Virus record (IMG/VR): IMGVR_UViG_3300050821_001427
Location: 1 to 50,119 of that record
Length of the DNA: 50,119 nt
From: a virus
Direction: 5' to 3' (one strand)
How positions within the stretch are numbered: position 1 is the first letter of the stretch; every line of letters starts with the position of its first letter. Made by a program: the position numbers and the translations under genes. A model generated the notes under the pieces. That model had not been told where the DNA came from. It did not search any database and was given only the letters and a program-made list of their open reading frames with translations. Below are positions 2,454 to 50,020 of the stretch, in pieces.

Positions 2454-3995
2454 TTAAGCTGCAACGCCCTTCGCCCTCGCAAGTCTCCCGCCTTTGGCAG
2501 CAGGAGTTCCAGGCTTAACCGGTGGAACTTCCACCTGTTTCTTCTCGGTGTCACCTGGCTGTGCCTCGACCTGATCGAACTCCTTGTGCTCATCAAGTTT
2601 GATCAGCAGTTCAGAGATAAGTCGGGCGGCATCGTTCGGGCATTTCTTCGCGAACATCTTCTTCTCGGCGATACTCCACCGAGCGACGTTGGCGAGGGTG
2701 ATGCCACGACTGGTAGTGAACAACGGCCACTTCTTCTCGATGGTCATAACTTCCTTGGCCGTAGGTGCCTTCGGATTGGTTGCCCACTCCGTGACAAGAT
2801 CAGCCGCGATCTTGCTTTCATCGGCTGATACCTCCGGCAGAAAGTCCGACGGTGGACGCTGTTCATCCGGCTTGGGCTGGGCTACAGGTTGTGCATCCTC
2901 TTCGCTTTCAGGCGAACGAAAGCGAGTGATGCGATCCTGCAACCTCTTGACCTCGTCGTTGGTTGAGACGTCCTCCTGAGCGAAACCAATCAGCTCGAGC
3001 GGGACAGGCATCTTCCATCCCTTCCGATCATAGCCCTTCGGAAGTTCTGCTTGAGACGACAAACCGAGGAACGTTCGAACCCAACGGTTCCTGGCGTTGC
3101 CTTGCAGACCAACAGGTACTTCCATCATCTGATGAGTATCAGCGGACGTACCTTCGAACTTCTTGAAGGGATCGTTGTCATCCCCTACCTTGGCCGGCAC
3201 GTTCGGCACGTTGTGCACGCCGGGAGGATTCTTCGTCTCGTGCTTCTCTGGCTCCGGCACCGTCGTCGTTGAGACAGCAGTTGATCCCATCGCACGGGCA
3301 AGACGACCGCCCTTCCTGGCGACAGCAACAGCTGCTTCGGCTGCCTTCGCCAGTGTACCTTGGCTGCCCCATCCAAACGTATTGGATGTGTTGCCCCACT
3401 CGAATGCACCGCCGAGTTCGTTGCGTCCGAAGCGGATCGGTTCACCAGTCAATGGAATGAAGACACAGGCTGCACGATGAGACACCGTGTTCATCACCGC
3501 CTGTTCGAAGTTGGATGCACGCAGACGCCGAAAGAAGTCCTCGATGTCTTGTGATGCCTCGAACTTGTCGAGCAGCGTCGGGAAGATGAAGTCCTCCCAA
3601 AGATGATACTCGTCGGTGTGTCCCTTGTCGGGCTTGCTGTAGTTTGGGAAGTCACCTTCCAAATGAACAGCAAGGATGTCTTGCGTGCCGCCTTCCGCTG
3701 ACTGCTGGAATACGAACGGCATCATGTCAGTCTCGGGATTGAAATCCTTCACTACATGGCCGAATGACAGCGTGACATCCAGATCCTTCAGCTGTGCCAA
3801 TGTCTTGCACATCGCATCGAGATCGAACACCTTGTGATCCGCCGACGTTTCCAACAACGGCTTATCCGGATGATCTTCCTCGACACTACGGATCGTCAGT
3901 CCGTGGTATGTTGGACAGTTCTTCTGGATGGTTTGAAGATAGCCACGCGGTATATCGTGGCCAGCCTTCTTCTCTACGATGACTTGTATATTCAT
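2454..3995 (-). CDS. class II glutamine amidotransferase-like (Ntn fold) protein with a long C-terminal extension
   Basis: Residues 1-210 follow the layout of phage class II (Ntn) glutamine amidotransferase-like proteins: an early strand and helix, LSFGHVVKD where the family has its HxRIATHG strand, DILAVHLEGDF where it has AxxHNG, a HTDE at 126-129 like its SDT, and AFEWGNTSNTFGW near 197-209. The nucleophile Cys that should follow Met1 is missing (MNIQ), so a binding or structural role is more likely than catalysis. The C-terminal 300 residues are hydrophilic and unrecognised. KGGRLARA occurs twice, near residue 230 and at the C-terminus. Start ATG at 3995 has GAGAGAGGA upstream. Codon choice looks strongly biased, suggesting high expression. 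Confidence 0.45.
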   Translation of the reverse strand: MNIQVIVEKKAGHDIPRGYLQTIQKNCPTYHGLTIRSVEEDHPDKPLLETSADHKVFDLDAMCKTLAQLKDLDVTLSFGHVVKDFNPETDMMPFVFQQSAEGGTQDILAVHLEGDFPNYSKPDKGHTDEYHLWEDFIFPTLLDKFEASQDIEDFFRRLRASNFEQAVMNTVSHRAACVFIPLTGEPIRFGRNELGGAFEWGNTSNTFGWGSQGTLAKAAEAAVAVARKGGRLARAMGSTAVSTTTVPEPEKHETKNPPGVHNVPNVPAKVGDDNDPFKKFEGTSADTHQMMEVPVGLQGNARNRWVRTFLGLSSQAELPKGYDRKGWKMPVPLELIGFAQEDVSTNDEVKRLQDRITRFRSPESEEDAQPVAQPKPDEQRPPSDFLPEVSADESKIAADLVTEWATNPKAPTAKEVMTIEKKWPLFTTSRGITLANVARWSIAEKKMFAKKCPNDAARLISELLIKLDEHKEFDQVEAQPGDTEKKQVEVPPVKPGTPAAKGGRLARAKGVAA

Positions 3996-4513
3996 GTAGT
4001 CCTCTCTCTCAGTTTACCCCGAGCTACCCAAACTTTACGTTGGGTTACCACTGCAACTACGGGGATATCGTTGCGTGGGTTCTGGATCGGACGATCACCG
4101 GGTATCTTACCCACCGTGCTCGGTGTGTGGTGAATGTCCTGACAATTACGGATGATGCGATAACGCATCCCTCGCTTCGGGTTCTTCCGCGTCAGCAGAT
4201 CACCCAACCTGTAAGCAATACCAAATCGCTTGCAGTCACGGCGGTATTCGTGACGGGTGATTACCCCATCGTGAAGCTTCTGGAATAACACATCGCCGAA
4301 CGCATCAGCATACATCTGATCCAGCACTGCCCGGCGCTTCATGTCATTGTCCGCTCGCTGCTTGTCTTGATGTTCCTTCCAACGAAGGACAGTCCATGCC
4401 ATGACACCAGACGTGATGATACACGTGGCTATCAAGACAGGGCCAGGGTAATGGTTGAGAACATCAACCGTTCTATTAACAATCTCCATATCCATGTCAC
4501 TGCTCCAATCCAA
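3992..4513 (-). CDS. hypothetical protein with one N-terminal membrane segment
   Basis: This 173-residue protein has one clear membrane segment at about 24-42 (PVLIATCIITSGVMAW), followed by a highly basic, charged domain. That suggests an inner-membrane anchor with a cytoplasmic C-terminal part. No family is recognised. Its stop overlaps the start of the following gene by four bases, and its own start overlaps the HNH gene by 17 bases. It therefore belongs to the same leftward operon and may be translationally coupled. Confidence 0.75.
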   Translation of the reverse strand: MDWSSDMDMEIVNRTVDVLNHYPGPVLIATCIITSGVMAWTVLRWKEHQDKQRADNDMKRRAVLDQMYADAFGDVLFQKLHDGVITRHEYRRDCKRFGIAYRLGDLLTRKNPKRGMRYRIIRNCQDIHHTPSTVGKIPGDRPIQNPRNDIPVVAVVTQRKVWVARGKLRERTT

Positions 4514-4838
4514 TCTGGATGAGATAACTCACCGCTTTGATGCGAGAGAGGTTCTTGTTAATGTCTTGCTGAAGTTCTTTGTTTCTTTGTTGAAGAGACA
4601 ACACGAACTCATCTAATGTCATATCAGCCTTCATGAAATTACATTGGCTGCATACAACAAGAGTACGCTCGGGTTTACGTTTGTAATTATTTTCTTCTTT
4701 CAACAACTGAAGTCTTGGCCGTCTGGACTTGGCTCTGATGTGATCGGTAGTGGGTTTCAAATAATGATCTGTTTTATCCATCGGATAGAGGCAGTACGGG
4801 CATGGCTGCCCGTCCCGCTCTAGCAACATAGGTTTCAT
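4497..4838 (-). CDS. HNH endonuclease
   Basis: This is a short HNH nuclease of 113 residues. CPYC at about 13-16 and CSQC near 58-61 form the zinc pair that frames the fold. TTDHI supplies the catalytic His, and the CSQCNFMKADMTLDEF segment is typical of the final helix of the motif. The rest is a charged helical tail. Such genes in phages act in packaging (next to terminase), as homing nucleases or in recombination. This one lies in the early block far from terminase, so a role in homing or host DNA breakdown is possible; I cannot choose between them. Confidence 0.8.
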   Translation of the reverse strand: MKPMLLERDGQPCPYCLYPMDKTDHYLKPTTDHIRAKSRRPRLQLLKEENNYKRKPERTLVVCSQCNFMKADMTLDEFVLSLQQRNKELQQDINKNLSRIKAVSYLIQIGLEQ

Positions 4839-6581: not shown

Positions 6582-7124
6582 CTATCCAATACGACGGATG
6601 TCATCTGCGATATCCGTAAGATTGATGAACTTGTCTGCCTGTCGACGTAGATCATTGCTGACCATGCCGATGGCAGACACAACATACACCTTCATTGCGT
6701 ATTGTTCCTGAAGTTCTTTCACCATCAACGTGAAGTCACCATCACCAGAGAACAACCACAACTCACTCAGCTTCAACCTCGCTGACTGAATGAAAGCGTA
6801 ACTCGCAATCTCGATGTCGACATTACCTTTCAACTTCTTGATCGTTCTCGATCTGACGTGACCACTCTCATCGATGTAATTCTCAACGACAGGATATTCC
6901 TTCGCTTCCTTGGTTACACAGATGTAACCGTTGTGACTGAGCCAATCCACAGTCTTGCGCACGTTACTCTCGATGGATTTATCCATCAGTGCTGTGAAGT
7001 AATACGCACGAAGCAGATCACCATCTTCGTTGAGTAGATCAAGCAATCGTGCGTAGTCGATTGTGATACGAGCGCTACGTGCACCCTCGTATAGATTACT
7101 TCCGTCGATAAGAACTAAGCGCAT
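6582..7124 (-). CDS. NYN-domain (PIN-like) putative ribonuclease
   Basis: This 180-residue protein has the NYN/LabA-like fold of the PIN nuclease superfamily. It shows the N-terminal strand with the first metal-binding Asp (LVLIDGSNLYEGAR), a middle acidic position in KGNVDIEIASYAF, and SGDGDFTLMV near 130, the acidic cluster of the active site. These enzymes cut single-stranded or structured RNA. The start is ATG at 7124, overlapping the stop of the upstream gene as TAATG, with GAGGA upstream; an in-frame ATG 15 bases earlier lacks a site. The substrate could be host tRNA or mRNA; that is inference. Confidence 0.8.
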   Translation of the reverse strand: MRLVLIDGSNLYEGARSARITIDYARLLDLLNEDGDLLRAYYFTALMDKSIESNVRKTVDWLSHNGYICVTKEAKEYPVVENYIDESGHVRSRTIKKLKGNVDIEIASYAFIQSARLKLSELWLFSGDGDFTLMVKELQEQYAMKVYVVSAIGMVSNDLRRQADKFINLTDIADDIRRIG

Positions 7125-7420
7125 TAGAAGTCCTCGCATTGCATGCCGTATCGTTCAGACCACCAATACAGCATGGATTTACCTTCCCAGAAATCCCAGC
7201 CACGCACCATCATCGGATCATCTTCGCCATTGCTCAGATCATCGATGTACACACAGCCAAGATATCCATCGCTTGGCCATACAGTCAGCAATGGAATAGC
7301 AGGCACAGGATACCGTGGCTCACGATAGCCACGGATATAAGCAAGACGCCAAGCTAGATGATCTTTCAATCTACGCTCAGCGTTGTATTCCCATGCAGGA
7401 ATATCATTCATGTGTACCAT
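7124..7420 (-). CDS. hypothetical protein, paralogue of the next gene upstream
   Basis: A 98-residue protein sharing the REPRYPVPA / KKPRYPVPA segment and flanking layout with the 78-residue protein at 7420-7656. The two look like tandem duplicates that have diverged. It is rich in Trp and Tyr with an acidic middle (YIDDLSNGEDD). Start ATG at 7420 overlaps the preceding stop as TAATG, with GAGAGGA just upstream. No function assigned. Confidence 0.7.
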   Translation of the reverse strand: MVHMNDIPAWEYNAERRLKDHLAWRLAYIRGYREPRYPVPAIPLLTVWPSDGYLGCVYIDDLSNGEDDPMMVRGWDFWEGKSMLYWWSERYGMQCEDF

Positions 7421-7656
7421 TAATCCTCTCCAGATATAGGTGTCTCCCAAAACACACCATAGGTAATGAGAACAACTTCAATCTCACCCGTACCTAAGTT
7501 CTTGTACCAATCCCATTCATAACGCACAGCAGGTACAGGATAACGTGGCTTCTTACGTCCAAGCTCGTACAGGTATTGGTTGGCTAACCTAGATGCCGCA
7601 CTCTGATATGAACGTTTAATAGCTTTGTTTGAACGGGTGTCTATCCCAACAGCCAT
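7420..7656 (-). CDS. hypothetical protein, tandem paralogue
   Basis: A 78-residue protein that contains the KKPRYPVPAVRYEWDW segment, resembling EPRYPVPAIPLLTVW in the following gene. ATG at 7656 has GGAGG four bases upstream; the frame is open further upstream but with no ribosome site. It follows a probable terminator at 7680-7714. No function assigned. Confidence 0.7.
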   Translation of the reverse strand: MAVGIDTRSNKAIKRSYQSAASRLANQYLYELGRKKPRYPVPAVRYEWDWYKNLGTGEIEVVLITYGVFWETPISGED

Positions 7657-7679
7657 AGTTACCTCCAGACAAAGAAATA

Positions 7680-7714
7680 GCCCCGTCAATAAACACACGG
7701 TCTACTGACGAGGC
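7680..7714 (-). terminator. probable intrinsic terminator/attenuator
   Basis: On the minus strand GCCTCGTCA pairs with TGACGGGGC (nine pairs, one G-U) around a 17-base loop and is followed by TATTTCTTT. It lies just after the stop of the small gene at 7721-7843. Confidence 0.5.
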
Positions 7715-7720
7715 TAATGG

Positions 7721-7843
7721 TTAACGCGGTGGTCTTAGTAAGACAAATAGTTCTTTGCCGACGTAGATGTAGTCAGTTGCCCTCCATCCACGAAGTAAGA
7801 ACTCCATATATAGATATGATTGCACGCTGACTACAACGCACAT
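7721..7843 (-). CDS. small hypothetical protein (40 aa)
   Basis: A 40-codon frame that starts by overlapping the stop of the gene at 7843-8091 (TGATG). The protein (starting MCVVVSVQSYLYMEF) is mildly hydrophobic at its N-terminus and ends LLRPPR. Coupling to the upstream stop and the terminator just after its own stop are the evidence that it is a gene. Function unknown. Confidence 0.55.
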   Translation of the reverse strand: MCVVVSVQSYLYMEFLLRGWRATDYIYVGKELFVLLRPPR

Positions 7844-8091
7844 CACAGCTTCTCTCCGTATGCACCGAACAACGGTTCGATGTAGTGATCACCTCGAAAC
7901 TCATGCGCATGGTTCACAGGATGGAAGTTACCAAGCGCACGGCAGAATGCGTCGATACGTGGCTGTAGCTTGCTCTGAACTACAGCAAGTCTTTCACCAC
8001 GGTACACACCTTGCAGATCGTTGCTATTGCTGCAAGGCACACACGTTGGAAGCCAAAGCTGCCAACCATTTGCAGTCATGATGTAGAGCAT
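7843..8091 (-). CDS. hypothetical early protein (82 aa)
   Basis: The first gene after the strongest promoter-like sequence on this strand (8130-8157). ATG at 8091 has GAGAGGA upstream. The protein is 82 residues with CVPCSNSN near 16 and no recognised domain. Its position, first in an operon behind a near-consensus host-type promoter, suggests immediate-early expression and perhaps a host-takeover role, which is inference. Confidence 0.7.
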   Translation of the reverse strand: MLYIMTANGWQLWLPTCVPCSNSNDLQGVYRGERLAVVQSKLQPRIDAFCRALGNFHPVNHAHEFRGDHYIEPLFGAYGEKL

Positions 8092-8129
8092 TTCGTCCTC
8101 TCGATTTATGGCGAGATTGCCATTCTACC

Positions 8130-8157
8130 ATTATAAGCTGATGGTCTGTTAAGTCAA
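8130..8157 (-). promoter_or_regulatory. strong sigma70-like early promoter
   Basis: On the minus strand: TTGACT (8157-8152), a 16-base spacer, TATAAT (8135-8130), followed by GGTAGA. The gene it would drive starts at 8091. The -10 with TATAATGGTAGA is repeated exactly at 47845-47872. Confidence 0.75.
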
Positions 8158-8180
8158 GCCGAGGACTGTTAGTGCGTTAA

Positions 8181-8209
8181 TTGTCAAGACATTTATTGAA
8201 CGGTATAAA
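8181..8209 (+). promoter_or_regulatory. promoter-like sequence on the plus strand
   Basis: TTGTCA (8181-8186), 17-base spacer, TATAAA (8204-8209). It points toward the convergent gene at 8415-9458, so a transcript would run into the terminator at 8366-8399 and then antisense. It may be chance in AT-rich DNA. Confidence 0.3.
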
Positions 8210-8365
8210 TGATTTACTAATTGACATTACGATTTATACGTTGGCTACAGCGCGCGTGCATGAAAACCTATCACTAAACGGTAGTTTAGTGTGCAGTGCA
8301 GTATGTGCATCGCAGCATAGAACATAACGGCAACGCAATATTGGTATCATGTTACCTCCATCGGA

Positions 8366-8399
8366 CAAAGAAAAACCCTGTGACATTGCTGCCACAGGG
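8366..8399 (-). terminator. rho-independent terminator
   Basis: On the minus strand CCCTGTG and CACAGGG form a perfect seven-pair stem with a ten-base loop, followed directly by TTTTTCTTTG. It lies 15 bases beyond the stop of the gene at 8415-9458. The 8092-8414 intergenic stretch holds this terminator and the promoters, with no other gene seen. Confidence 0.85.
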
Positions 8400-8414
8400 T
8401 TGAGTTGGTATACG

Positions 8415-27380: not shown

Positions 27381-27916
27381 TGAATCCACTATCGATAGGT
27401 ATAGGCATAGCAGGGTTTGGGGCTTCCCTCTACGGAGGGCTTGCTGGAGCTAAGGTAGCTGGGCAAGAGACTCAAGTATCTGAGAACATAGCTCAGAATG
27501 AGCAGGCTATCAACCAACAGAAGAACCAACAGATGCAGCTGCAAGCTAGCAGAGCTCAGCTACAGAATTTCCGTAACGCGCAGCGGCTGCGTGCACAAGC
27601 TACAGCAGCTTCCGTGCAAGGTGGTTCGCAGTATGGTTCCGGTCTTGGTGGTGGCTACGGCGGTATCTCTGGACAAGCTGGCACTAACTCTCTAGGCATC
27701 AACCAGAACGAACAGATAGGACAGAACATCTTCGGACTCCAGAATAACATCTCTGCCGATAAGATGCAGATGGCTAAGCTGCAAGGTTACGCTGCTGAAG
27801 ACCAAGGCATATCTTCCCTAGGTGGTGCGCTGACTAAGGCAGCTCCCACGTTAAGTCCCGCTGGTACTACCCTATTCTCAATGGCTTCCAATTTCATTGG
27901 TAGCGCAGGTGCGTAA
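27380..27916 (+). CDS. internal virion protein, gp14-like
   Basis: A 178-residue protein with a Gly/Ala-rich hydrophobic N-terminus (SIGIGIAGFGASLYGGLAG), a Gln-rich central helix and a second hydrophobic end. In T7, gp14 is the first core protein ejected and forms a channel in the outer membrane. Position after the nozzle gene and composition fit this role. Confidence 0.75.
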   Translation: MNPLSIGIGIAGFGASLYGGLAGAKVAGQETQVSENIAQNEQAINQQKNQQMQLQASRAQLQNFRNAQRLRAQATAASVQGGSQYGSGLGGGYGGISGQAGTNSLGINQNEQIGQNIFGLQNNISADKMQMAKLQGYAAEDQGISSLGGALTKAAPTLSPAGTTLFSMASNFIGSAGA

Positions 27917-30900
27917 TGGATCCAGTTAATCTCGATACCAACGTACAACCACCTAACCCAGTTAACCTGGATTTAGGTACCGACACCACACCTCCGTCAG
28001 CTCCTGTAGCTGCCAACCGTGCCTACAAGACTAGCGTAGGTTTGGGTAAGTACATCGATCAGTCTGAACCTGAACTGTACAACGCGTACATGCAAGGTCA
28101 GGAACAGAACATCCGTAACCGTGCAGCTGAGCTTAAGGATATGGAGAATGAAGGCAATCGTCGTCAGTCAATCATAAACAGTGCTCAGCAAGCTGGACAG
28201 ACCCTGTCTATCGAAGACTGGGAAAAGATGCAGCAACAGCCTACCGATCCTAATTCGGTAGTGGAGGATGGATACTCCGGTGCATTCCTTAACAATATCT
28301 ACAAGTCTATGGTTAACTTCGGCGGATGGGATGCTGTCAAAGCTATGGAGGTAGTTCCAGAGGTAGTATCCAAGGACATCGACAACGCCGTAGGCGCCAT
28401 GTCTAACCGTGAATATGCTGTACGTGGCGTAGAAGATCTGCAAGACACCGTCTCTAGCCAAGGTATTGTTCCTTGGGCACTAGACCAAGCTAAGTCTCTC
28501 GTTCCTTTCTATAACGATGTCAAGCTCCGTGGCTGGATGGAACATACGTCTGCTGTTCAAGGTGTTCTACTCGGCAACAACTTATACGATCAAACTCGTG
28601 AACTGCTGCGGCTTCCGGGTCCGCAGTTCCGAGACAAGTACGATCAAATCAAGAACAGTCTTGCTAATGACAACCCTGCCCTAGCTCTGTACTGGGCTAA
28701 CGCAGTTGTTGGCATGTCCTCTGGCGAACAGTTACTGGCTAACATCAACAATGTCATAGACACTACAGCTGTACCTGGTATCGCCAAGGGAGCTATGAGT
28801 GTACTCCGTGGTGTCAATACCGTTCGTAAGGGACTGACTGATGCTATCCGCGAATCAGCTACTGTCAACCCAGTCAAGGGTGCGGCAGCGGAAGGCTTCG
28901 GAGATACAGCTACAGCAGCTGTTGAAAAATCAGCAGATGATGCTGTTCAACGGATGACTGGTCAACCCAAGCCTAGCGGCACTGGTGTTGATGTCAATGC
29001 CGTAAATGATCCAATCCAGAGGGCTCAACAGACCCTTCCTACAGGCTTCCAGCTTGATCGTAACAAACTTAAATCTAACCCAGGTCCTCTATCCAGAGAA
29101 CTGATGAACAGGTTGGAGGAGCAGTCCTACACCAACGAGTTCAACGTGATGGACGCGATAGCTAACGTAGCTAAGGTCCAACGTATATCTCTGGAAGAAG
29201 CATCTACCCAAGTCTACACAGCACTAAAAGACAGTGTTCGTAATCAATACCCTGGGTTGAAGAATGCCATAGCTGACATCGGAGATCCTGTTTGGAATCC
29301 CTACGGCAACAACTATAACTTCCCTGTTCGTATCTTCGCGGAGACTGGTGAACAGTTCTCTTCCGAGGAGGTAGCTAGACGCTTCGCTTCCGAGAAGGGT
29401 ATCCTTGAGTATGAGCTGAAGGGTAAGCCAGGTGCTACCCACTACATCCCTGAAGCAGCTATCAAGCGCTCATGGGAGACCACTCCACGTCTAGGTGCAG
29501 TAACATATAAGAACGGTGAGCTTCGTGTATTTACTGATGATGGAGCTGAAGTCGCAACTACCATTACTCCACAGGCTGGCCATGTTCCTATTGAAGTTCG
29601 TCCTGATGGGACTGTTAAGTTTCATCCTACTCTTAAGTCTGATGAAGAAGTTGCTAAAGCTGTTATTCAACAACAAGGACTAGGCTTCCACCTTATCACT
29701 TGGAAACCTTTGGATGAGACACAGTTCGTAATCAAAGATCTGATGTCTAGACTGGATAGTACCAAGTCTATCGCAAGCAATGACGGCATCCGTGGCTGGG
29801 TTAACTCCATTCCGTTTATTGGCTACACCAGAACGTCCGAGGCAACACTGTCTCCGTTCGAGGTACGTCAACGTAACATCGCTAACGATTCCGTATCCGT
29901 CTATCACAAGCTCCTGCAGGAGCAGATGAAGTATGTGGAAGACGTAGCTCGTGGGCGTGTCCGAATCGATGAAGCTACAGGACAACCAGTCAACGCTGTC
30001 TGGTCCTACATCAAGACACTCAATCCTATAACCAAGTTCAACAACAGGCAGATCTATAATGAGTTTTCTAGAGCCCTTGATCTTGGTCGCTTCACTCCAA
30101 ATGAAGCCACAGGCAAGCTTGGGAAGTTCGCAGAGAATCCTGCCGAGCTATACCAGATCTACCATACCAACTTCCAAAGAGATCCTACCTTTCGAGAGGT
30201 GCAAGGATATTTCGCGTTCACAAGGAATTACGAGAATGACCGTGTCTTCCGGTCGCTCCGTGAGTACACCAACAAAGTCAGACTAGGTGCTGAACAACAT
30301 CAGGTAACCTTCAAGGACAACCTGGGCAACACCACGCCCAGTGGTTTCTTCGAAGGCATCATTCACCGCACCCTCCCCGGCGGTGAAGATCCTATCCTTC
30401 TCTTACACGATGGGCATAACGATATCCGTCTTACCTCCAAGATAGGTGGTACGTATAAGGATCTGGATAAGGAAGTAAAGACTGGTAAGTACACGGTCAT
30501 CGAACTCTACAACCCTGAGCTTCGTCCGTTGAAGGATATCCCAGGAGTAGGACGTAACTACATCCGATACGTACTGGCAGATAGTGCCGAGACGAAGGGA
30601 CTGGATTGGAACCAAGTCAACAAACTAGGTGGTGGTCACTTCGAGTATAACTACTCCCACTACATCAAGGAAGCTAAGATTGAAGCGACTCATGCTGGCT
30701 CCACGACCATCCACAGATATGAAGGGGACAGGACGTTTATGCCGGTGGCTAACCAAGCCCAAGGCAGAGCTATCGTCAGAGTCCTCAACATGGTTAAGCA
30801 CCATCTGAAGGAAAACGATATCGACAAGGCAAGGGATGTCTTCGAGAATGGTCTCCGTGGTGAACACGGTCCTGCGATGGAGTGGAAAGACTTCTATTCC

Positions 30901-33192
30901 CAGACACAGCCTGCCAAGGATGGAACGGTGGGTGTTGATATCCACGAACCATACCGGGTAGTTCCCAAGGGTAAGTCTATCCTAGACTTGGATGATGCCC
31001 TACGTAATCGCTACGGCAAGCTTAATGAACAAGGACAATGGCAGTCTACGTTTAAGGATGGCACCAAGTCCGGTAGCCTCGCACGTCAGTACCAGGTAGC
31101 TTACACTACCGAGCGTGACAGCGAAGCACTGAAGACACTGAACGCCTATGGTACTAAAAACAATCCTATCTACAAGTATGAACCAGCCGAGTTCGTAGAT
31201 CCTATCCAAACTATGAACCGTGCTCTGAACCAGATCTCTTCCCAGTCGTTCATGGACGACATGAAGATAGCTGGTGTTGAGTCATGGCTACGTGAAGCTG
31301 AAAGGTATCTGAAGGCTCCTGATATCAACGATATCCGATCTTCTCCGTGGTGGTACTTCCATAACAGTAATAACGAGAAAGCATTCACTGCTGCTGCTGA
31401 TAGACAGACGGTAAGTAACCTCCTATCTAATCGTTTCAAGACGATGCAGTTCATAGGCATTCCTAGCAGGTACGACATCTTCATGCACGATACTGCACAG
31501 AAGTTGGCTGACTTCAGCTATGACAAGCTAGGTCCTAGCGGCAGTAAACTAGTTCCTACCTGGCTACTAAACCATACGAAGTCACCTGTCCAGATGCTAC
31601 GCTCATTGGCGTACCATACCAAGATGGGTTTATTCGCATTCCCGCAGCTGCTGACCCAGTCACAGACGTATCTTACTATCGCAGCTATTGCACCACGATC
31701 GGCGGTATCGGGAACTGTCGGAGCTATGCTTCATCAATGGAGTAAGTTCAGCAGAGATCCTGCCTTCCTATCCAGACTAGATAACATCGCTACCCATATG
31801 CAGATCCCCGGTTTCCATACCTGGAAGCCCGGTGAGTTTCTGGAAGCTATGCGGGAGATGAATAACCGTGGCTTCGCCAACTATGGTTCTACCAGTAATG
31901 CCCTGAAGACACAGCTGAAACACTCCTTCGTTAAGAGTGAGTTCGATTCCTTTCTTGACCTAGGTCAGATGTTCTTCAACGCTGCAGACCAGAACGTCAA
32001 GTACGGAGCATGGTATACAGCTTACAAGGAATACCGAGCACTGAAGCCAGAGCTTGGTACCCTGGCTAGAACAGACTGGGACAAGATACACACACGAGCT
32101 AATGCTCTATCAGGCAGTATGACCAGAGCTTCCGCTTCGATTATGCAATCAGGACCACTTGGTCTATTCAATCAATTCCTTACATACCAAACCCATCTCG
32201 CTGAATTCTTCTGGGGTAAGAACATCGAGACCGAAGGTAGTACTGTATTCCAACGTTCGTTAGCTCGAGCTAGGATGTACGGTATGTATGCAACTATGTT
32301 CGGTCTCCCTGGTGCTATCGGTGTAACCGGTCTCCCAGCTACCCAGACCTTCCGACAGTACGCCATAGACAACGGCTACGTCGTAGGGGATAAGTGGATA
32401 CAGAGTATGATGGTGGAGGGATTGCCTGCTGCCTTCCTTGCATGGATGACATCCGACAAGGACAAGAAGAATGGTAATTGGTATAACATCAATGACAAGC
32501 TTGGCGCTGGCGGTCTCACTCAATTTAACGAAATTCTTAACTCTGATCCTAAGTGGTGGACTCTCATTGGTGGTGCTAGTACTAGCATTGCGGCTAATAC
32601 GATGAACAATGCCCGAGGTTGGGTACGTTCCAACTGGAGCATGATGACTGGCAAGCAAGGTGATGAAGCCTTCCCTGCCAAGATCGATGACTGGACTGAT
32701 ATCTTCAAGGAGATATCCTCCGTCAATCAAATCCAGAAGATGATTACCGGTGTCGCATTCGGGAAGTGGTTAAGCAAGAACGAGTTGTACCAAGCAGATG
32801 TATCTAAAGCTAATGCGATCTTTATGGGACTTACTGGTCTCAATCTCCAGAACTCTGGCGATAACTACATCATCGGACTTGATTTGGCAGCACAGAAGGA
32901 TTCCGAGAAGCAGGGACTGAACCGGTTCATCCGGGAGTTCCATCGTGGTATCACATCTGCCAACAACAACGACTACCCCAGCTATAAACAATACATGACC
33001 CGAGCATACACATTGCTGAAGGCTTATGAATACCCAATCGATAAATATGCCACAGCTATCAGCATAGCTAGCAAGGGATACGAAACCCAGATCGATAGTA
33101 TCCGGGAAGAATTCTATACCAAGAATGTACCGCAAGGTAAGGAACCGATGCGCTACGATGCTTACCAACGGTTCCTGAAGACTACGAGGTAA
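27916..33192 (+). CDS. large internal virion protein, gp16-like
   Basis: At 1758 residues this is the largest gene, in the position of T7 core proteins. It is mostly helical, with hydrophobic stretches in the C-terminal third (LGLFNQFLTYQTHLAEFFWG; MYGMYATMFGLPGAIGVTG near 1450). I see no lytic transglycosylase motif at its N-terminus, where T7 gp16 has one. It probably is ejected to form part of the DNA translocation channel across the envelope. Its stop lies one base before the next ATG. Confidence 0.75.
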   Translation: MDPVNLDTNVQPPNPVNLDLGTDTTPPSAPVAANRAYKTSVGLGKYIDQSEPELYNAYMQGQEQNIRNRAAELKDMENEGNRRQSIINSAQQAGQTLSIEDWEKMQQQPTDPNSVVEDGYSGAFLNNIYKSMVNFGGWDAVKAMEVVPEVVSKDIDNAVGAMSNREYAVRGVEDLQDTVSSQGIVPWALDQAKSLVPFYNDVKLRGWMEHTSAVQGVLLGNNLYDQTRELLRLPGPQFRDKYDQIKNSLANDNPALALYWANAVVGMSSGEQLLANINNVIDTTAVPGIAKGAMSVLRGVNTVRKGLTDAIRESATVNPVKGAAAEGFGDTATAAVEKSADDAVQRMTGQPKPSGTGVDVNAVNDPIQRAQQTLPTGFQLDRNKLKSNPGPLSRELMNRLEEQSYTNEFNVMDAIANVAKVQRISLEEASTQVYTALKDSVRNQYPGLKNAIADIGDPVWNPYGNNYNFPVRIFAETGEQFSSEEVARRFASEKGILEYELKGKPGATHYIPEAAIKRSWETTPRLGAVTYKNGELRVFTDDGAEVATTITPQAGHVPIEVRPDGTVKFHPTLKSDEEVAKAVIQQQGLGFHLITWKPLDETQFVIKDLMSRLDSTKSIASNDGIRGWVNSIPFIGYTRTSEATLSPFEVRQRNIANDSVSVYHKLLQEQMKYVEDVARGRVRIDEATGQPVNAVWSYIKTLNPITKFNNRQIYNEFSRALDLGRFTPNEATGKLGKFAENPAELYQIYHTNFQRDPTFREVQGYFAFTRNYENDRVFRSLREYTNKVRLGAEQHQVTFKDNLGNTTPSGFFEGIIHRTLPGGEDPILLLHDGHNDIRLTSKIGGTYKDLDKEVKTGKYTVIELYNPELRPLKDIPGVGRNYIRYVLADSAETKGLDWNQVNKLGGGHFEYNYSHYIKEAKIEATHAGSTTIHRYEGDRTFMPVANQAQGRAIVRVLNMVKHHLKENDIDKARDVFENGLRGEHGPAMEWKDFYSQTQPAKDGTVGVDIHEPYRVVPKGKSILDLDDALRNRYGKLNEQGQWQSTFKDGTKSGSLARQYQVAYTTERDSEALKTLNAYGTKNNPIYKYEPAEFVDPIQTMNRALNQISSQSFMDDMKIAGVESWLREAERYLKAPDINDIRSSPWWYFHNSNNEKAFTAAADRQTVSNLLSNRFKTMQFIGIPSRYDIFMHDTAQKLADFSYDKLGPSGSKLVPTWLLNHTKSPVQMLRSLAYHTKMGLFAFPQLLTQSQTYLTIAAIAPRSAVSGTVGAMLHQWSKFSRDPAFLSRLDNIATHMQIPGFHTWKPGEFLEAMREMNNRGFANYGSTSNALKTQLKHSFVKSEFDSFLDLGQMFFNAADQNVKYGAWYTAYKEYRALKPELGTLARTDWDKIHTRANALSGSMTRASASIMQSGPLGLFNQFLTYQTHLAEFFWGKNIETEGSTVFQRSLARARMYGMYATMFGLPGAIGVTGLPATQTFRQYAIDNGYVVGDKWIQSMMVEGLPAAFLAWMTSDKDKKNGNWYNINDKLGAGGLTQFNEILNSDPKWWTLIGGASTSIAANTMNNARGWVRSNWSMMTGKQGDEAFPAKIDDWTDIFKEISSVNQIQKMITGVAFGKWLSKNELYQADVSKANAIFMGLTGLNLQNSGDNYIIGLDLAAQKDSEKQGLNRFIREFHRGITSANNNDYPSYKQYMTRAYTLLKAYEYPIDKYATAISIASKGYETQIDSIREEFYTKNVPQGKEPMRYDAYQRFLKTTR

Positions 33193-42052: not shown

Positions 42053-42190
42053 TTATATATCCATATTAGTTTTGTAATAAACTAGAGCTTCGACGATGAG
42101 GTCTCGCTCTGCTTCGTTGAGTAGGAAGGACTCCTTAGTTGCTCCTACCAAAGGCATTCCTTCAAGATCTTCAATAAGATAGTTAATCAA
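42053..42190 (-). CDS. small acidic protein, TTG start (45 aa)
   Basis: A 45-codon frame that begins with TTG overlapping the polymerase stop (CATTGA), with GGAG upstream, and ends one base before the SSB start codon. The product (NYLIEDLEGMPLVGATKESF..., ending YKTNMDI) reads as a real acidic protein. Role unknown. Confidence 0.55.
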   Translation of the reverse strand: MINYLIEDLEGMPLVGATKESFLLNEAERDLIVEALVYYKTNMDI

Positions 42191-44067
42191 TGTGTTCTGC
42201 TCCAGTTGATATCAATAGTGTAGTCTTTTAAATCATCATTCCAATACGATCCCGCCAAAGGACATCGTAAATCCAAATCGTTTCCAACCTCCTCTAAAGA
42301 TGATGCCATCATACGTGCAATACATAAAGCTATCTCCATATCGTTTGGACATTCCACCTGCCATTCATCGTGTACAAAATTAACTAGCTTTGCATCATAA
42401 TCGTCTAGTCGCTGCCACCACTTAAGAGTGGCAGACTTCATTACCACGGCCTCGCCATTTTGGAGATAGCCCGACATCGCGAGGTGACGCCTACTGCTTT
42501 CAGTGTCGCCTGGTATCCTAACCCTGCGATTGTCCAGTCCTGTAAGCCACCCACGTTTCGCATCCTTTGGGAATACGTTCTCCTTAAGATATGCCCAACC
42601 AGAGTATCGGGACATGAGACGATCAAGAGCTTCTTCTGTCTCGGGTATTGAGCACCCCAATATCTCAGACAGCTTACCCAATCCTGCACCCAGAAGTAGG
42701 GCATATATGAAGCGCTTTGCGGCGGCTCTACTCTTACAATGATCGCCAAGAATTCGCTGGTTAAGACTATGCGGATCGGTCTTGTCATCTTTGCGTCCCT
42801 TCACTAGTGCGTCGGTGAACTCAGGATCATTGATGTAATGAGCAAAGATGCGTAGCTGTATACCTTCAGCGTCAACCCCAACGAGCAGTCTATTCTTCGG
42901 AGCCATCCAAAGACTGCGTAATTCCTTACCCAGGATCTTTTTCTTCCCCGCTGTATCTAGCTCGTTGGGGATGTTGGCTGTGTTGGGATGTTGATGGGAC
43001 ATCCGGTGGGTCCATGCCCCAAGCCCTTGGAAGCGTCCATGAATTCTGCCGGTACCATCAACTAAGTCAAGCCACTCGGTGAGTGTTCGACGTCTGCTTT
43101 CCAAGAGGATCCGTTTTGCTAGAAGTCTAGCTGGCTTGGGTGCATTACTTGGAAGAGTTTCCAGATTGGTTTCGTTAACCTTCCAACCTGTCTGCTCTAA
43201 TACTTTAAGTTTATCTTTGTCCTTGTTACGGACAGCTTCTACATGTGTCTTGGTCTTGTCGGTAGGTTTCCATCCTGCTTCGTTGAGGACTCGGATGATT
43301 TGCTTATGGCTGGATGGATTAAACACTTCCTTTCTAGTGTGTCGATAAGTTGTACCAATAGAATAATCGGCAATGCAAGGCCATAAAGAACGAGGAACAG
43401 AAGTTTTGCTAATGGTTCCAAACTTAGTACCCTTAGGAGTGAACTCACGAATAAGGGTTTCTCGTGGCGGAAATGCATCAAGGATATCCTTGTCTAGAAC
43501 TGCAAGCTCTGCTGTAACCTTTTCAAGGAGGCCGCTCGCTTTCTTAGTATTGAAAGCAAACCCATCTGTGTGCAGCTTATTACAAACCAACTGAAAGTGA
43601 TGCTCAAGAGCGATAGATCTTTTGTGCTCGGGCTTATTAATGTACCTAAGATACTTAAGGTAAATGCGATAGCAGATGTCCACGTCGCGAATACAGTAAG
43701 TTTCCAGAGCTTCTGAATACTTGGAGAAGTCATTGTGCTCTAGCTTTTCTTCGCCGAACTCTTCCCCGTAGTCTTCGATCGAGTGGCCTTGTCTGGGGTA
43801 GTCGACAAGCTTGCTGATGACCAGGGTGTCAAGTACCACGTCAACGTCGAGCGGATGTCCGACAATACGCTGTAGATGGATACCGTCATAGCCAAGGTAA
43901 TTATGCCCAATGATAAGACGGCAATTTGATAAGAATGTTCGAAGTTCATCGTATTGATTTTCCTTAAAGATATGATATTTACCGGTGTCGATGTCCTTGC
44001 AGACTACGACCCAGATACGGGTAGGATTAAATAATGCATTGCCTTCGATGTCTATAACTACGCGCAA
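42187..44067 (-). CDS. T7-like family A DNA polymerase
   Basis: A 626-residue replicative polymerase. The 3'-5' exonuclease has D6/E8 in VIDIEG, the GHNYLGYDG segment at 54-62 and YCIRDVD with D128. Polymerase motif A is GVDAEGIQLR (397-406), motif B RAAAKRFIYALLLGAG (447-462), motif C HDEW (566-569). All catalytic carboxylates are present, so it should be active and proofreading. It starts with TTG, AGGA upstream, overlapping the kinase-like gene by 41 bases. It is shorter than T7 polymerase (about 700 aa). Confidence 0.95.
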   Translation of the reverse strand: MRVVIDIEGNALFNPTRIWVVVCKDIDTGKYHIFKENQYDELRTFLSNCRLIIGHNYLGYDGIHLQRIVGHPLDVDVVLDTLVISKLVDYPRQGHSIEDYGEEFGEEKLEHNDFSKYSEALETYCIRDVDICYRIYLKYLRYINKPEHKRSIALEHHFQLVCNKLHTDGFAFNTKKASGLLEKVTAELAVLDKDILDAFPPRETLIREFTPKGTKFGTISKTSVPRSLWPCIADYSIGTTYRHTRKEVFNPSSHKQIIRVLNEAGWKPTDKTKTHVEAVRNKDKDKLKVLEQTGWKVNETNLETLPSNAPKPARLLAKRILLESRRRTLTEWLDLVDGTGRIHGRFQGLGAWTHRMSHQHPNTANIPNELDTAGKKKILGKELRSLWMAPKNRLLVGVDAEGIQLRIFAHYINDPEFTDALVKGRKDDKTDPHSLNQRILGDHCKSRAAAKRFIYALLLGAGLGKLSEILGCSIPETEEALDRLMSRYSGWAYLKENVFPKDAKRGWLTGLDNRRVRIPGDTESSRRHLAMSGYLQNGEAVVMKSATLKWWQRLDDYDAKLVNFVHDEWQVECPNDMEIALCIARMMASSLEEVGNDLDLRCPLAGSYWNDDLKDYTIDINWSRTH

Positions 44068-44851
44068 TTACATTCCTAATGATTAAAGGTTGGGGAACTA
44101 AATCCCCAACACGAAGTCTGTTGTACTTGTCTTCGCCACGGCTTACCGGGTCTACAATTACGAATGACCCATCGCTGCGTAGCATCAGGTTACCGTCATG
44201 GAAATCGAAATTCCGAATTGGAATCTTCCACTGGGCTGCCATCTTTGCTAGGTAGTCCATCAGTCCTGGTGCCAGGGTTTCGATGAACTGCCTTGCCATC
44301 GGGTTCTCTGCACGCCAGATCAATGAGGGGATGATCTTCAGTGCATGTTCTTCCGGAGCATCTTCGAGAGTATACTTCAAACGCTCCACAACCGCAACAG
44401 CAAAATCTTTCTTTCGACCTTTAATCTTCTTATAAGAGAAGACCTTAGGTGCGAAGTGACCGGCTTCCCCGGCCTGCGCCGCCCAGTGGATGTAGTTGAT
44501 CCATCCATCAGGACGCCGGATGACCTTGATGACTCGCTTACTTCCGTCCTTAGCTAGGACGGTGGCGAATTCACCTCGGCCGATGATCTTGAAGCCTCGT
44601 TTCTCAAGGCCTTTGATGAAGCCTTCCGCATTATCGAACGGCTTCTTCTCGAACTTACGGAAGATGAACTTCGGACCGAACTCGTGGTTCAGTTCTACGA
44701 CACCTACCTTGCCTTGGGGATTGTCCGTCCTCGGCATATTAGCGATCATCTTCTGCATCGCATCCAGCCGAGCACCCCAAGCTTTGAAGTTAATAGCTCC
44801 AGTGGGGTCTGTAGTAGGACGAATGATCTTCTTCAGGTTTTGCCAGAGCAT
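44027..44851 (-). CDS. protein kinase-like protein
   Basis: A 274-residue protein with kinase-fold motifs: a Gly-rich loop GRGEFATV (91-98), a Lys in VIKVI (about 107-111), a catalytic NFDFHDGN (214-221) and a metal-binding VDP (233-235). The spacing is that of small eukaryotic-like or APH/choline-type kinases. T7 also encodes a kinase (gp0.7) that shuts off host transcription, but this gene lies in the replication module, so the target is open. Start ATG 44851 has GGAG upstream and overlaps the preceding gene by 62 bases. Confidence 0.75.
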   Translation of the reverse strand: MLWQNLKKIIRPTTDPTGAINFKAWGARLDAMQKMIANMPRTDNPQGKVGVVELNHEFGPKFIFRKFEKKPFDNAEGFIKGLEKRGFKIIGRGEFATVLAKDGSKRVIKVIRRPDGWINYIHWAAQAGEAGHFAPKVFSYKKIKGRKKDFAVAVVERLKYTLEDAPEEHALKIIPSLIWRAENPMARQFIETLAPGLMDYLAKMAAQWKIPIRNFDFHDGNLMLRSDGSFVIVDPVSRGEDKYNRLRVGDLVPQPLIIRNVIARSYRHRRQCII

Positions 44852-45866
44852 CTTCGCGCTCCTTGTCTGTCATTTTGGGGAATGCAGGACAACCCTGCAA
44901 TCTTAATTCCCTAACAATTGCATTCAATCCCGTAGTTGCAGACATATCCATATCTTTGAACATGGATGCCTTGATGGGCTGACCAGCCGAGGAGATGGTA
45001 TAGATTTGTTCCTCGTTGTGTTCCTTCAGCGCACACATCGATGCGGCACCACCAAGTCCCTCGCCGATCTCCTTAAACTCATGGTGGCGTTGCATGTCCG
45101 CGAAGAACAATCCACGGAACATCGCTGCATGACCTAGACCGAACGCTAACCGGTTGATGTCTACCGGATGGTGACTCTCTTTCACACGAACGAATTCGTA
45201 TGCGCGGATAGTACCACGGCTACCGGTGTGGAAGTCATAACCATTCGTTACTACCGAAGCAATCACCTCGACTGCGAAACCCTTCGCTTCGATCTCATCG
45301 ATCAGAGCTGCAGTCACAGCAGCCTTGTTGGTAATCATGTCGGCATCGGTACCACCATTCTCACACATGTTGTAGATGATGGTGATGGTTTTCTTCTTCA
45401 TGCTAGCCGTTGGTTTCGGCTGTCGCATATTCAGAAGGTTGCCAGCTATGGCACGAGGGACGTTCGGTGTCGTCCCTGCGATACCATACTTCACTAGCTT
45501 GGGAGAGATCGGATTTAAGGCCTGGATGTAGCCTCGTGCCTTATCACAGGCCACGCCGCCCTCTTCCCAGCCGTGTACTGCCATATCTAATGCCTCATCG
45601 AATGAGTCACAGCCGTTGAATTCCTTACTCCAACGATTACGTACGTTGTTCCTAGCCCACCAACCTGAACCGTTGTCACCCTTGAATTGCTTCGCAAAGA
45701 CTTCAAGGGAGGACCAGCTTGCAATGACTGTCTTCTTCAACGGATAGCTTGCAGGAATGCTGGTATCTTCCGCATCACTCTGCACACGGATAGTACGTGT
45801 CAAGTCCGGGGCATCCCCGAGCTCGACAACGGGAGGGGAGTTACCCCCTCCGTTATCTTCTGCCAT
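44790..45866 (-). CDS. probable VWA-like partner of the MoxR ATPase (DUF7192-like)
   Basis: This 358-residue protein has an N-terminal part with SWSSLEVFAKQ, SFDEALDMAVHGWEEG and DUF7192-like spacing, then TITIIYNMCENGGTDADM ... ALIDEIEAKGFAVEVIA at about 165-210, which looks like a von Willebrand A core with a degenerate metal site. MoxR ATPases usually work with a VWA-type protein encoded beside them, as here. I place the start at ATG 45866 with GGAG upstream; nine extra codons upstream lack a site. The C-terminus overlaps the kinase-like gene. Confidence 0.6.
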   Translation of the reverse strand: MAEDNGGGNSPPVVELGDAPDLTRTIRVQSDAEDTSIPASYPLKKTVIASWSSLEVFAKQFKGDNGSGWWARNNVRNRWSKEFNGCDSFDEALDMAVHGWEEGGVACDKARGYIQALNPISPKLVKYGIAGTTPNVPRAIAGNLLNMRQPKPTASMKKKTITIIYNMCENGGTDADMITNKAAVTAALIDEIEAKGFAVEVIASVVTNGYDFHTGSRGTIRAYEFVRVKESHHPVDINRLAFGLGHAAMFRGLFFADMQRHHEFKEIGEGLGGAASMCALKEHNEEQIYTISSAGQPIKASMFKDMDMSATTGLNAIVRELRLQGCPAFPKMTDKEREDALAKPEEDHSSYYRPHWSY

Positions 45867-45867
45867 A

Positions 45868-45946
45868 TTATTCTCCTGCAGCTTCTTGTGCAAGTTTCAG
45901 TGCATACGCGAAGAAGTCATCCCAGTATTCTTGCTCGGTGGTAGGA
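45868..45946 (-). other. coding-like +1 frame tail after the MoxR stop
   Basis: Directly after the MoxR stop the +1 frame stays open and reads like protein (TEQEYWDDFFAYALKLAQ..., then a stop at 45870-45868, one base before the next ATG). No ATG, GTG or TTG starts it. The MoxR gene ends in an A-rich run (GCAAAAAGAAG). Either a frameshift or a one-base assembly error could fuse this 27-residue tail to MoxR. Confidence 0.45.
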
Positions 45947-46915
45947 TTACTTCTTTTTGCTTTTAGACTTCAGCTCAGCTTCAGTCTTGACGCCAGCCGC
46001 TCGGTCGACGATGCGCTTCTTCAGCTCACCATCGATACCCTTCCAGATCGTACGCTCTTCCACCAACTCCTGCTTCCAACCGGCAGCGAGAAGCTTCGCG
46101 CCATTGATGGAGGCTCGGGGAGAGATAACGATACGTGCCTTCTCGACCTGGGCAGCAGCACGCAGTTCCTGCACACGCTTCACCCAATCGATGTTACCTG
46201 CCAGCGCAGTCTCCAACTTCTCGTCGTAACCGAAGTCGAAGAACACGAACCGATCCAGCGTCGAAGCATCGAGCTGGTTGGCACCGACATACAGTCGGTC
46301 GGCACCGGTACCGAACGTGTTAGCTGCAATCATCACCCTGAACTTCGGATGACGGTTCACCGGATCAGGCTTGTCCGGGAACATCGCACGACCATTCGCG
46401 AGGGCAGAGTTAGCCCACTTCAACGCACCGGGATCGGAGGTATCCACCTCGTCGATGAACAGCAGTCCACCGTGTTCGAATGCCTGACGGAACGTAGTCG
46501 TGTTGTACTTGCCGTTGGCATCCATGTAGCCAGCAAGCTCATGGGTACCAGTGACGGCGTTCTGGAGGTAGAACTTGAAGTCCAGAGCTTCAGCAACCTG
46601 CTCACCGACAGTCGACTTACCGGAACCGGCAGGACCAATCAGAGCGGTCGGGACGTTGGCATTAACCGTGACGAGGATGTCCGGGAACAGATGATGCCTA
46701 GGCTCATCCTTCAGTTCCTTCACGACATCGTTGTTCTTCAGCTCAATCTTGTTGAGCATGTTCATGTTGATGATCTCTTCCTGGATCAGACGTTTCGTCT
46801 CTTCCAAGGACGGAGCGTTGAGAGCCTTGCGCAGATGCATCATGGCATCGCCGCTCACCGGCGTGACACCAACCAGCTCCTTCTCGAAGTTATTCAGCGC
46901 TGCAAACCCAGACAT
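45947..46915 (-). CDS. MoxR/CbbQ-type AAA+ ATPase
   Basis: A 322-residue AAA+ protein: Walker A GPAGSGKS (94-101), Walker B LLFIDEVD (151-158), sensor 1 IAANT (196-200) and an arginine-finger LDRF (220-223). These ATPases act as chaperones that insert metals or remodel partner complexes through a VWA-domain protein; the next gene is the likely partner. In a phage it may reshape a host complex or a replication protein, which is inference. AAGGA precedes the ATG. The C-terminus is Lys-rich and may be extended by frameshift (45868-45946). Confidence 0.9.
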   Translation of the reverse strand: MSGFAALNNFEKELVGVTPVSGDAMMHLRKALNAPSLEETKRLIQEEIINMNMLNKIELKNNDVVKELKDEPRHHLFPDILVTVNANVPTALIGPAGSGKSTVGEQVAEALDFKFYLQNAVTGTHELAGYMDANGKYNTTTFRQAFEHGGLLFIDEVDTSDPGALKWANSALANGRAMFPDKPDPVNRHPKFRVMIAANTFGTGADRLYVGANQLDASTLDRFVFFDFGYDEKLETALAGNIDWVKRVQELRAAAQVEKARIVISPRASINGAKLLAAGWKQELVEERTIWKGIDGELKKRIVDRAAGVKTEAELKSKSKKK

Positions 46916-49193: not shown

Positions 49194-49341
49194 GGCGCAC
49201 CTCAGAACTCGAGACTGGCATAGATATTAGGCGATGTTCCCTGCCGCTTCCGTCCACCCAGATCGGCTCCGGTAACGTTTTGAAGAACATTGCCTCCACC
49301 CACTGTTGGTTTTTGTACCGCACCTGGACTAGTAGTGTCAT
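49153..49341 (-). CDS. small protein overprinted on the end of the UDG gene (62 aa)
   Basis: The ATG at 49341 has a strong GGAGG seven bases upstream, itself inside the uracil-DNA glycosylase gene. The 62-residue product (LVQVRYKNQQWVEAMFFKTL...) is read in a different frame from the last 46 codons of that gene, a 140-base overlap, and also overlaps the next gene by 41 bases. Function unknown. Confidence 0.6.
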   Translation of the reverse strand: MTLLVQVRYKNQQWVEAMFFKTLPEPIWVDGSGREHRLISMPVSSSEVRHDFERKNGESLAI

Positions 49342-50020
49342 CGTCCAGCCTCCAGTTTACGACTTCTTGGTCAAGCTCTCTAAGTTTTGCATTGATCGTA
49401 GAGAAGATTCTTGACCCGGTGAAAGGTGTCTTCGAGGCCCGTATTCCACGTGGGGAAGGGTGGCTGGTTCGGATGACTCGGTTTCTTTCGAGGTCGACAC
49501 GCTCTGCATACCTTGATGCGACATTTCCGAGGAAAGCAAAGACAATACCTTTCTTCGATAGTCGATCGACGATCTCTCCTGTGAGAAAAGACCACTCGTC
49601 CCAGTCATTAGAAAGAGGCATACCTCGCTGTACAGAAGGGATCGCGTTCCAGAGAAGGACCCCTTGAGCTGTCCATCTTCCGAGGTCACCGTGATCTGGA
49701 ATTGGGTGGTGGAGGTCGGAAGTATACTCGCCGAGGATGATCTTGAGTGTATGGGGGAAGCTTTCTTTTCCGACTTTTTCTGGGATTGCAAAAGCCACTC
49801 CCGTCGCGAGCGACGTGCCGTCTGACGTGGTTCCAGGGTACGGATCTTGGCCAATAATCGCGACACGGACTGTTCGCTCTGGTGTTGCAGATAAAGCTTT
49901 GTACAAGCTTCGCTTCTCTGGGTAACAGGTAATGCCAGTAGCTCTAAGATCATCGATCTTCTCCTCTACGACTTGGCGTTCACCGCAGTCCCACCATTTC
50001 AGCTCAGGCCACGGATGCAT
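49202..50020 (-). CDS. ung: uracil-DNA glycosylase, family 1 type
   Basis: A 272-residue enzyme that removes uracil from DNA. It carries GQDPYPG (57-63), the family 1 water-activating motif, LLWNAIPS (122-129) in place of the usual LLLN segment, and HPSPRG (187-192), the DNA-intercalation motif. The glycosylase core ends near residue 225; the last 46 residues are low-complexity (TVGGGNVLQNVTGADLGG) and are overprinted by another gene. It may protect phage DNA or counter uracil arising from deamination. GCGAGAG precedes the ATG. Confidence 0.9.
   Translation of the reverse strand: MHPWPELKWWDCGERQVVEEKIDDLRATGITCYPEKRSLYKALSATPERTVRVAIIGQDPYPGTTSDGTSLATGVAFAIPEKVGKESFPHTLKIILGEYTSDLHHPIPDHGDLGRWTAQGVLLWNAIPSVQRGMPLSNDWDEWSFLTGEIVDRLSKKGIVFAFLGNVASRYAERVDLERNRVIRTSHPSPRGIRASKTPFTGSRIFSTINAKLRELDQEVVNWRLDDDTTSPGAVQKPTVGGGNVLQNVTGADLGGRKRQGTSPNIYASLEF

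Follow-up and report, generated by a model that had tools for sequence, protein, structure and literature searches.

The phage genome and its MoxR-type gene pair

The window analysed here, the whole 50,119-base stretch of a virus record, carries the gene set of a tailed phage, including a primase/helicase, a family A DNA polymerase, a gp2.5-like protein, a Cas4-type exonuclease and a uracil-DNA glycosylase. The primase/helicase gene (101–1672, minus strand) and the uracil-DNA glycosylase gene (49202–50020, minus strand) lie at opposite ends of the window, and their likely counterparts adjoin in relatives such as locus L007. The record, although classed as linear, is therefore probably a nearly complete, circularly permuted genome. 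An open reading frame of 1758 aa is found at 27916–33192, in the structural region.

The ATPase gene (45947–46915, minus strand, 322 aa) is followed by the gene for a DUF7192 protein, its partner (44790–45866, minus strand, 358 aa), and both are intact. The partner starts with an ATG at 45866 that is preceded by a good Shine–Dalgarno sequence; translation probably does not begin at the TTG listed at 45893. Next comes a gene for a T7 gp0.7-like protein kinase (44027–44851, minus strand; phrog_15752, 4e-10), which overlaps the partner gene by 62 bases and contains a Gly-rich loop (GRGEFATV) and the motifs VIK, HDGN and VDP. The family A DNA polymerase (42187–44067, minus strand; PF00476, 2e-34; phrog_17, 2e-100) completes the order and is a neighbour only. 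A kinase-like gene and then the polymerase had been described after the partner in the first-pass annotation, and the profile matches agree with this.

The ATPase matches Pfam AAA_5 (9e-12) and phrog_249 (3e-55). It contains Walker A (GPAGSGKST), Walker B (LLFIDEVD), sensor 1 (ANT), arginine finger (LDRF) and sensor 2 (SPRA) motifs, in which K100, D155/E156, N199, R222 and R267 are invariant or at least 90% conserved among 83 relatives. Its AlphaFold2 model (pLDDT 89.7) aligns best with CbbQ2 and NorQ, with a Z-score of about 20 (17–21) over the full domain (217–235 residues aligned). The model also contains the short helix-2 β-hairpin insert of clade 7 (EE-----EE), located between helices 125–128 and 141–148. 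The protein is a complete MoxR-clade AAA+ ATPase, having both the catalytic motifs and the helix-2 insert, and the earlier description of an intact MoxR/CbbQ enzyme was correct. By sequence profile its nearest solved proteins are midasin and CobS, of which CobS (5e-22) is the nearest with a single module.

A predicted VWA fold with an altered metal site

The second protein had been described as having a VWA-like core and a DUF7192-like start. Its match to PF23822 (DUF7192; 1e-30, 107.1 bits against a cut-off of 27) covers residues 71–287. DUF7192 therefore spans most of the partner, so that the family assignment stands but its restriction to the start does not. All 79 aligned members of the partner family match PF23822. 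The N-terminal region of the partner contains a conserved block (FxGxxSxxEA..GWxEG), after which the predicted VWA-fold domain begins.

The AlphaFold2 model of the partner, made from the alignment of 79 sequences (pLDDT 86, pTM 0.85), has a VWA fold. Its top structural match is the VWA domain of NorD in the NorQ complex (Z 6.7, 176 residues, r.m.s.d. 6.0), and the MIDAS domain of midasin MDN1 aligns similarly (Z 6.5, 162 residues, r.m.s.d. 4.1). Foldseek also matches the model to NorD (5e-5). The VWA-like core was thus recovered in the prediction, and independent fold searches with the two models arrive at two halves of one known complex, a CbbQ2/NorQ-type ATPase and NorD bound to NorQ. The VWA α/β fold assigned to the partner is not final, because the model is predicted and the Z-scores are modest (5–7, below 8) and could partly reflect a common α/β arrangement.

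Profile–profile comparison matches DUF7192 to the VWA domains of 13 phage CobT proteins (E = 1.5e-4; reversed-profile controls gave 0.27–0.35, and with an unrelated profile the range was 0.21–0.35). In this alignment N165 (residues numbered as in P0002, which omits Met1) falls on the MIDAS Asp and an upstream motif also lines up. The match came only with the 13-sequence profile, S-PM2 CobT alone giving none. The partner appears to be a phage CobT relative of reduced length. It could be argued that DUF7192 is no VWA homologue but merely a Rossmann-like arrangement, paired with the ATPase for another joint task, as Z-scores of 5–7 are within reach of unrelated folds, the partner has no sequence match in the PDB and the metal motif is mostly absent. 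Such a coincidence of folds is improbable, however, as nearly all rows in the structure-match table are VWA proteins with those that partner AAA+ ATPases at the top, the CobT alignment places N165 at the MIDAS position, and five family members keep the full motif.

The MIDAS of the window partner is degenerate, with N165-x-C167-x-N169 (NxCxN) in place of the classical DxSxS. The full DxSxS is found in 5 of 138 DUF7192 family members and its first Asp in 16. As read from these sequences, the classical metal site is gone in nearly all members, unlike in classical VWA partners. After the MIDAS position, in contrast, R250 is near-invariant (133/138), and K228 (115/138) and H245 (105/138) are also conserved.

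Conservation and genomic setting of the pair

Loci were collected by the ATPase from IMG/VR, annotated phages and bacterial genomes. When viral contigs were searched with the ATPase alignment, a route that orphan DUF7192 genes escape, the DUF7192 gene was present in 90 of 95 loci, a set in which a few records are duplicates and one is the window. In the remaining five the stored DNA ends within the ATPase gene or about 300 bases or less past it, so that the partner is present, beside the ATPase or one gene away, in 90/90 loci for which the DNA is long enough. In bacterial genomes it accompanies 50 of 53 ATPases; one of the other loci ends at the ATPase and two hold distant ATPases of another kind, which leaves 50/50 of the loci long enough to show it. 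Conservation of the two genes together had been set beforehand as a check on the pair, and it holds in both sets. The partner also occurs in each of seven additional phage isolates (Alteromonas, two Listeria genera, Acinetobacter, crAss-like, Gordonia and Sinorhizobium). In Mycobacterium phage DirkDirk the ATPase is truncated and the partner was likewise undetected.

The partner usually lies directly downstream of the ATPase in the same orientation, sometimes farther off by one or two genes; an Enterococcus phage and a single IMG/VR locus have it upstream. Clustering of the neighbouring genes placed the ATPase and partner families in 132 loci each, the next commonest family occurring in 14 of the 132. 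Such close linkage far exceeds what chance would give, and the two genes form a fixed module. The distance matrices of the two families also correlate (r = 0.52, against a maximum of 0.16 in 500 permutations), which by itself is no proof of contact because the carriers of both families share ancestry. The pair is not peculiar to the window phage; it is common in tailed phages, with several hundred phage records that include Staphylococcus and Listeria phages, and also occurs in bacterial chromosomes. In seven Bacteroidota loci the chromosomal pair is preceded by a LytTR response regulator gene (in L116 at 6756–7511), which hints at regulated expression.

Strict adjacency is not universal among distant relatives. 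DUF7192 is found in 6 of 149 Flavobacteriaceae genomes. Five genomes of this family (L160–L164) hold a divergent subfamily of about 339 aa, encoded 2–12 kb from a divergent MoxR ATPase, except that for L163 no such ATPase was found. The long gene clusters that contain these divergent genes may be mobile elements.

No third conserved gene that would name a client was found among the 132 loci; the genes nearby vary from terminase and portal at some loci to primase and polymerase at others. The kinase was considered as a third component and rejected, as its neighbour cluster (c58) holds only two other loci, the nearest relatives L007 and L009. A gene similar to the overlapping kinase gene is kept in L007 and L009 and is absent in L010, L018 and L020. 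The kinase and polymerase lie outside the conserved module and therefore give no pointer to the client.

The genomic setting also bears on two other functions that may be considered. The pair could be a virion-assembly chaperone that matures or remodels structural proteins, for example those of the tail or head. A metallopeptidase–vWA pair of group 2.2 jumbo phages has been proposed to act as an assembly chaperone, for which a two-tailed archaeal virus offers a precedent (PMC7824862). At some loci the genes next to the DUF7192 pair indeed encode terminase, portal or head morphogenesis proteins, and Rhizobium phage P106B has the pair among its structural genes. In the window and its nearest relatives, however, the pair belongs to the replication cluster, and in a crAss-like phage it lies beside Sak4, helicase and primase genes. 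The chromosomal pairs adjoin housekeeping genes in ordinary bacterial chromosomes, where no virion is built. A dedicated role in virion assembly is thus unlikely. As the contexts span replication, packaging and housekeeping genes, the client is probably not the product of a neighbouring gene.

The second possibility is counter-defence by the phage or, in chromosomes, a MoxR–vWA defence or conflict module resembling the ternary conflict systems. MoxR–vWA pairs form the core of known conflict systems, in some of which the vWA protein has a degenerate MIDAS (PMC7159879). The patchy spread of DUF7192 in Flavobacteriaceae and one locus beside a type I restriction gene would fit such a role. Against this, the module has no conserved third component or effector. 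The PF20030 bpMoxR model scores 14.4 bits with the ATPase against a cut-off of 27, which places the pair outside the MoxR–vWA β-propeller ternary systems. A known defence family was also sought and rejected, since with the PADLOC models DUF7192 gives no match and the ATPase matches weakly, which is not convincing. Defence or counter-defence is therefore a doubtful explanation of the pair.

The porphyrin label and a proposed remodelling role

The phrog_249 family carries the name porphyrin biosynthesis, which many phage records copy. According to this name the pair would be a viral cobaltochelatase helper (CobS–CobT) that works with the CobN of the host to insert cobalt and supply the phage with more vitamin B12. 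CobS is the nearest single-module solved relative of the ATPase, DUF7192 resembles phage CobT, and viral cobST pairs have been proposed as B12 boosters (PMC8651126). Nevertheless, the ATPase scores 23.9 bits with the NCBIfam CobS equivalog TIGR01650, whose cut-off is 558.55, and does not qualify as a CobS. The partner does not qualify as a CobT, given its distant profile match, its lost MIDAS and its much shorter length. Among the 49 cellular genomes with the pair, some of which are draft MAGs, 3 yielded CobN (PF02514), compared with 5 of 14 control genomes in the same search; none was found in the window. Many carriers infect Staphylococcus and Listeria, and S. aureus is not known to make B12. 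A role in cobalamin or porphyrin synthesis was rejected on the CobS cut-off and the absence of CobN, and is highly improbable.

Phages with a genuine CobT-like partner and an intact MIDAS form a separate set, which the B12-booster proposal (PMC8651126) may fit; on present evidence it does not fit the DUF7192 family. The porphyrin/cobalamin label is misleading and has been taken up in the literature, for example in a report that counts the ATPase of Alteromonas phage R22Y, as CobS, among auxiliary metabolic genes (PMC11705849). The R22Y ATPase has a DUF7192 neighbour. The evidence recasts the pair as a protein-remodelling machine and gives DUF7192 a predicted fold and a testable role.

Comparison with known systems points most strongly to NorQ–NorD, the MoxR ATPase and VWA adaptor that serve nitric oxide reductase (PDB 9qh6, 9qhd), whose halves are matched by the predicted folds of the ATPase and DUF7192. 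NorD differs in its size (69 kDa), its full MIDAS (DxSxS-T-D) and its large N-terminal domain, whereas the partner has 358 aa and a degenerate MIDAS. Midasin (Rea1/Mdn1) likewise combines an AAA+ ring with a MIDAS domain, matching the ATPase profile well and the partner by fold, but is a single giant eukaryotic polypeptide with an intact MIDAS that acts on pre-60S ribosomes. RavA–ViaA and CbbQ–CbbO are functionally of the same class, each a MoxR ATPase with a VWA adaptor, and CbbQ2 is the top fold match of the ATPase; their adaptors have other domains and their clients are known (respiratory complexes and rubisco). The CobS–CobT pairs of cyanophage S-PM2, Vibrio phage ICP2 and Pseudomonas phage hairong are also two-gene ATPase and VWA modules of tailed phages, with distant profile similarity to both proteins. 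Their CobT proteins are longer, however (about 680–860 aa in several full-length phage examples), and have a canonical DxSGS MIDAS. The ATPases of these pairs are much more distant, with E-values of about 1e-23 to 1e-27 when compared with the family profile; most members fall below 1e-60.

By analogy, the pair is most likely a NorQD-type remodelling machine, in which DUF7192 would probably be a dedicated adaptor that docks on the ATPase ring and through which the client is handled. Computation shows that the genes are intact with their catalytic residues, that they are obligately paired, that the MIDAS is lost and that a link to CobN is missing, and it yields the predicted folds; complex formation, a hexamer, client handling and the identity of the client are inferred. 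In NorQD the VWA domain inserts a finger into the central pore formed by the ATPase, and the adaptor is twisted as ATP is cycled (PMC13036017). Similarly, the phage ATPase would form a hexameric ring on which the adaptor docks via its VWA-fold domain, with a protruding loop probably in the central pore as in NorQ–NorD and midasin. The long hairpin 197–228 of DUF7192 is a candidate for this finger. ATP cycling would then pull or twist the adaptor and, through it, the bound client protein. Because the classical metal site is lost in most members, the face of the adaptor that binds the client would have to differ, and the grip would probably involve a substituted surface that includes R250, K228 and H245, or the DUF7192-specific N-terminal block.

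The likeliest client would be a complex of host or phage proteins on which the machine acts while the phage takes over the cell or replicates its genome. Remodelling had been proposed in the first-pass annotation and is favoured by the analogy with NorQ–NorD and midasin; its choice of a host or replication complex as the target is a guess. A bolder and tentative extension is that DUF7192 founds a class of VWA adaptors in which an arginine-centred, metal-independent grip replaces the metal-dependent one, and that the two genes form a mobile cassette for protein remodelling, sufficient in itself, whose client is a conserved cellular one even though the phages that carry it infect very different hosts.

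MoxR–VWA pairs are already known in phages, having been described for jumbo phages (PMC7824862). The literature searched yielded no paper mentioning DUF7192. As far as it shows, what is new is that DUF7192 is assigned as a VWA-fold adaptor, that in phages and bacteria alike it is obligately paired with the phrog_249 ATPase, that its MIDAS is lost, and that there is a case against the porphyrin label. The results also point to easy model phages in which the client of the pair could be found. At several loci two DUF7192 genes lie beside one ATPase (L005, at 3856–4704 and 7556–8404, and also L047, L134, L135 and L139), and in Mycobacterium phage Itos the two are gp138 and gp129. This suggests duplication of the adaptor, possibly with different clients.
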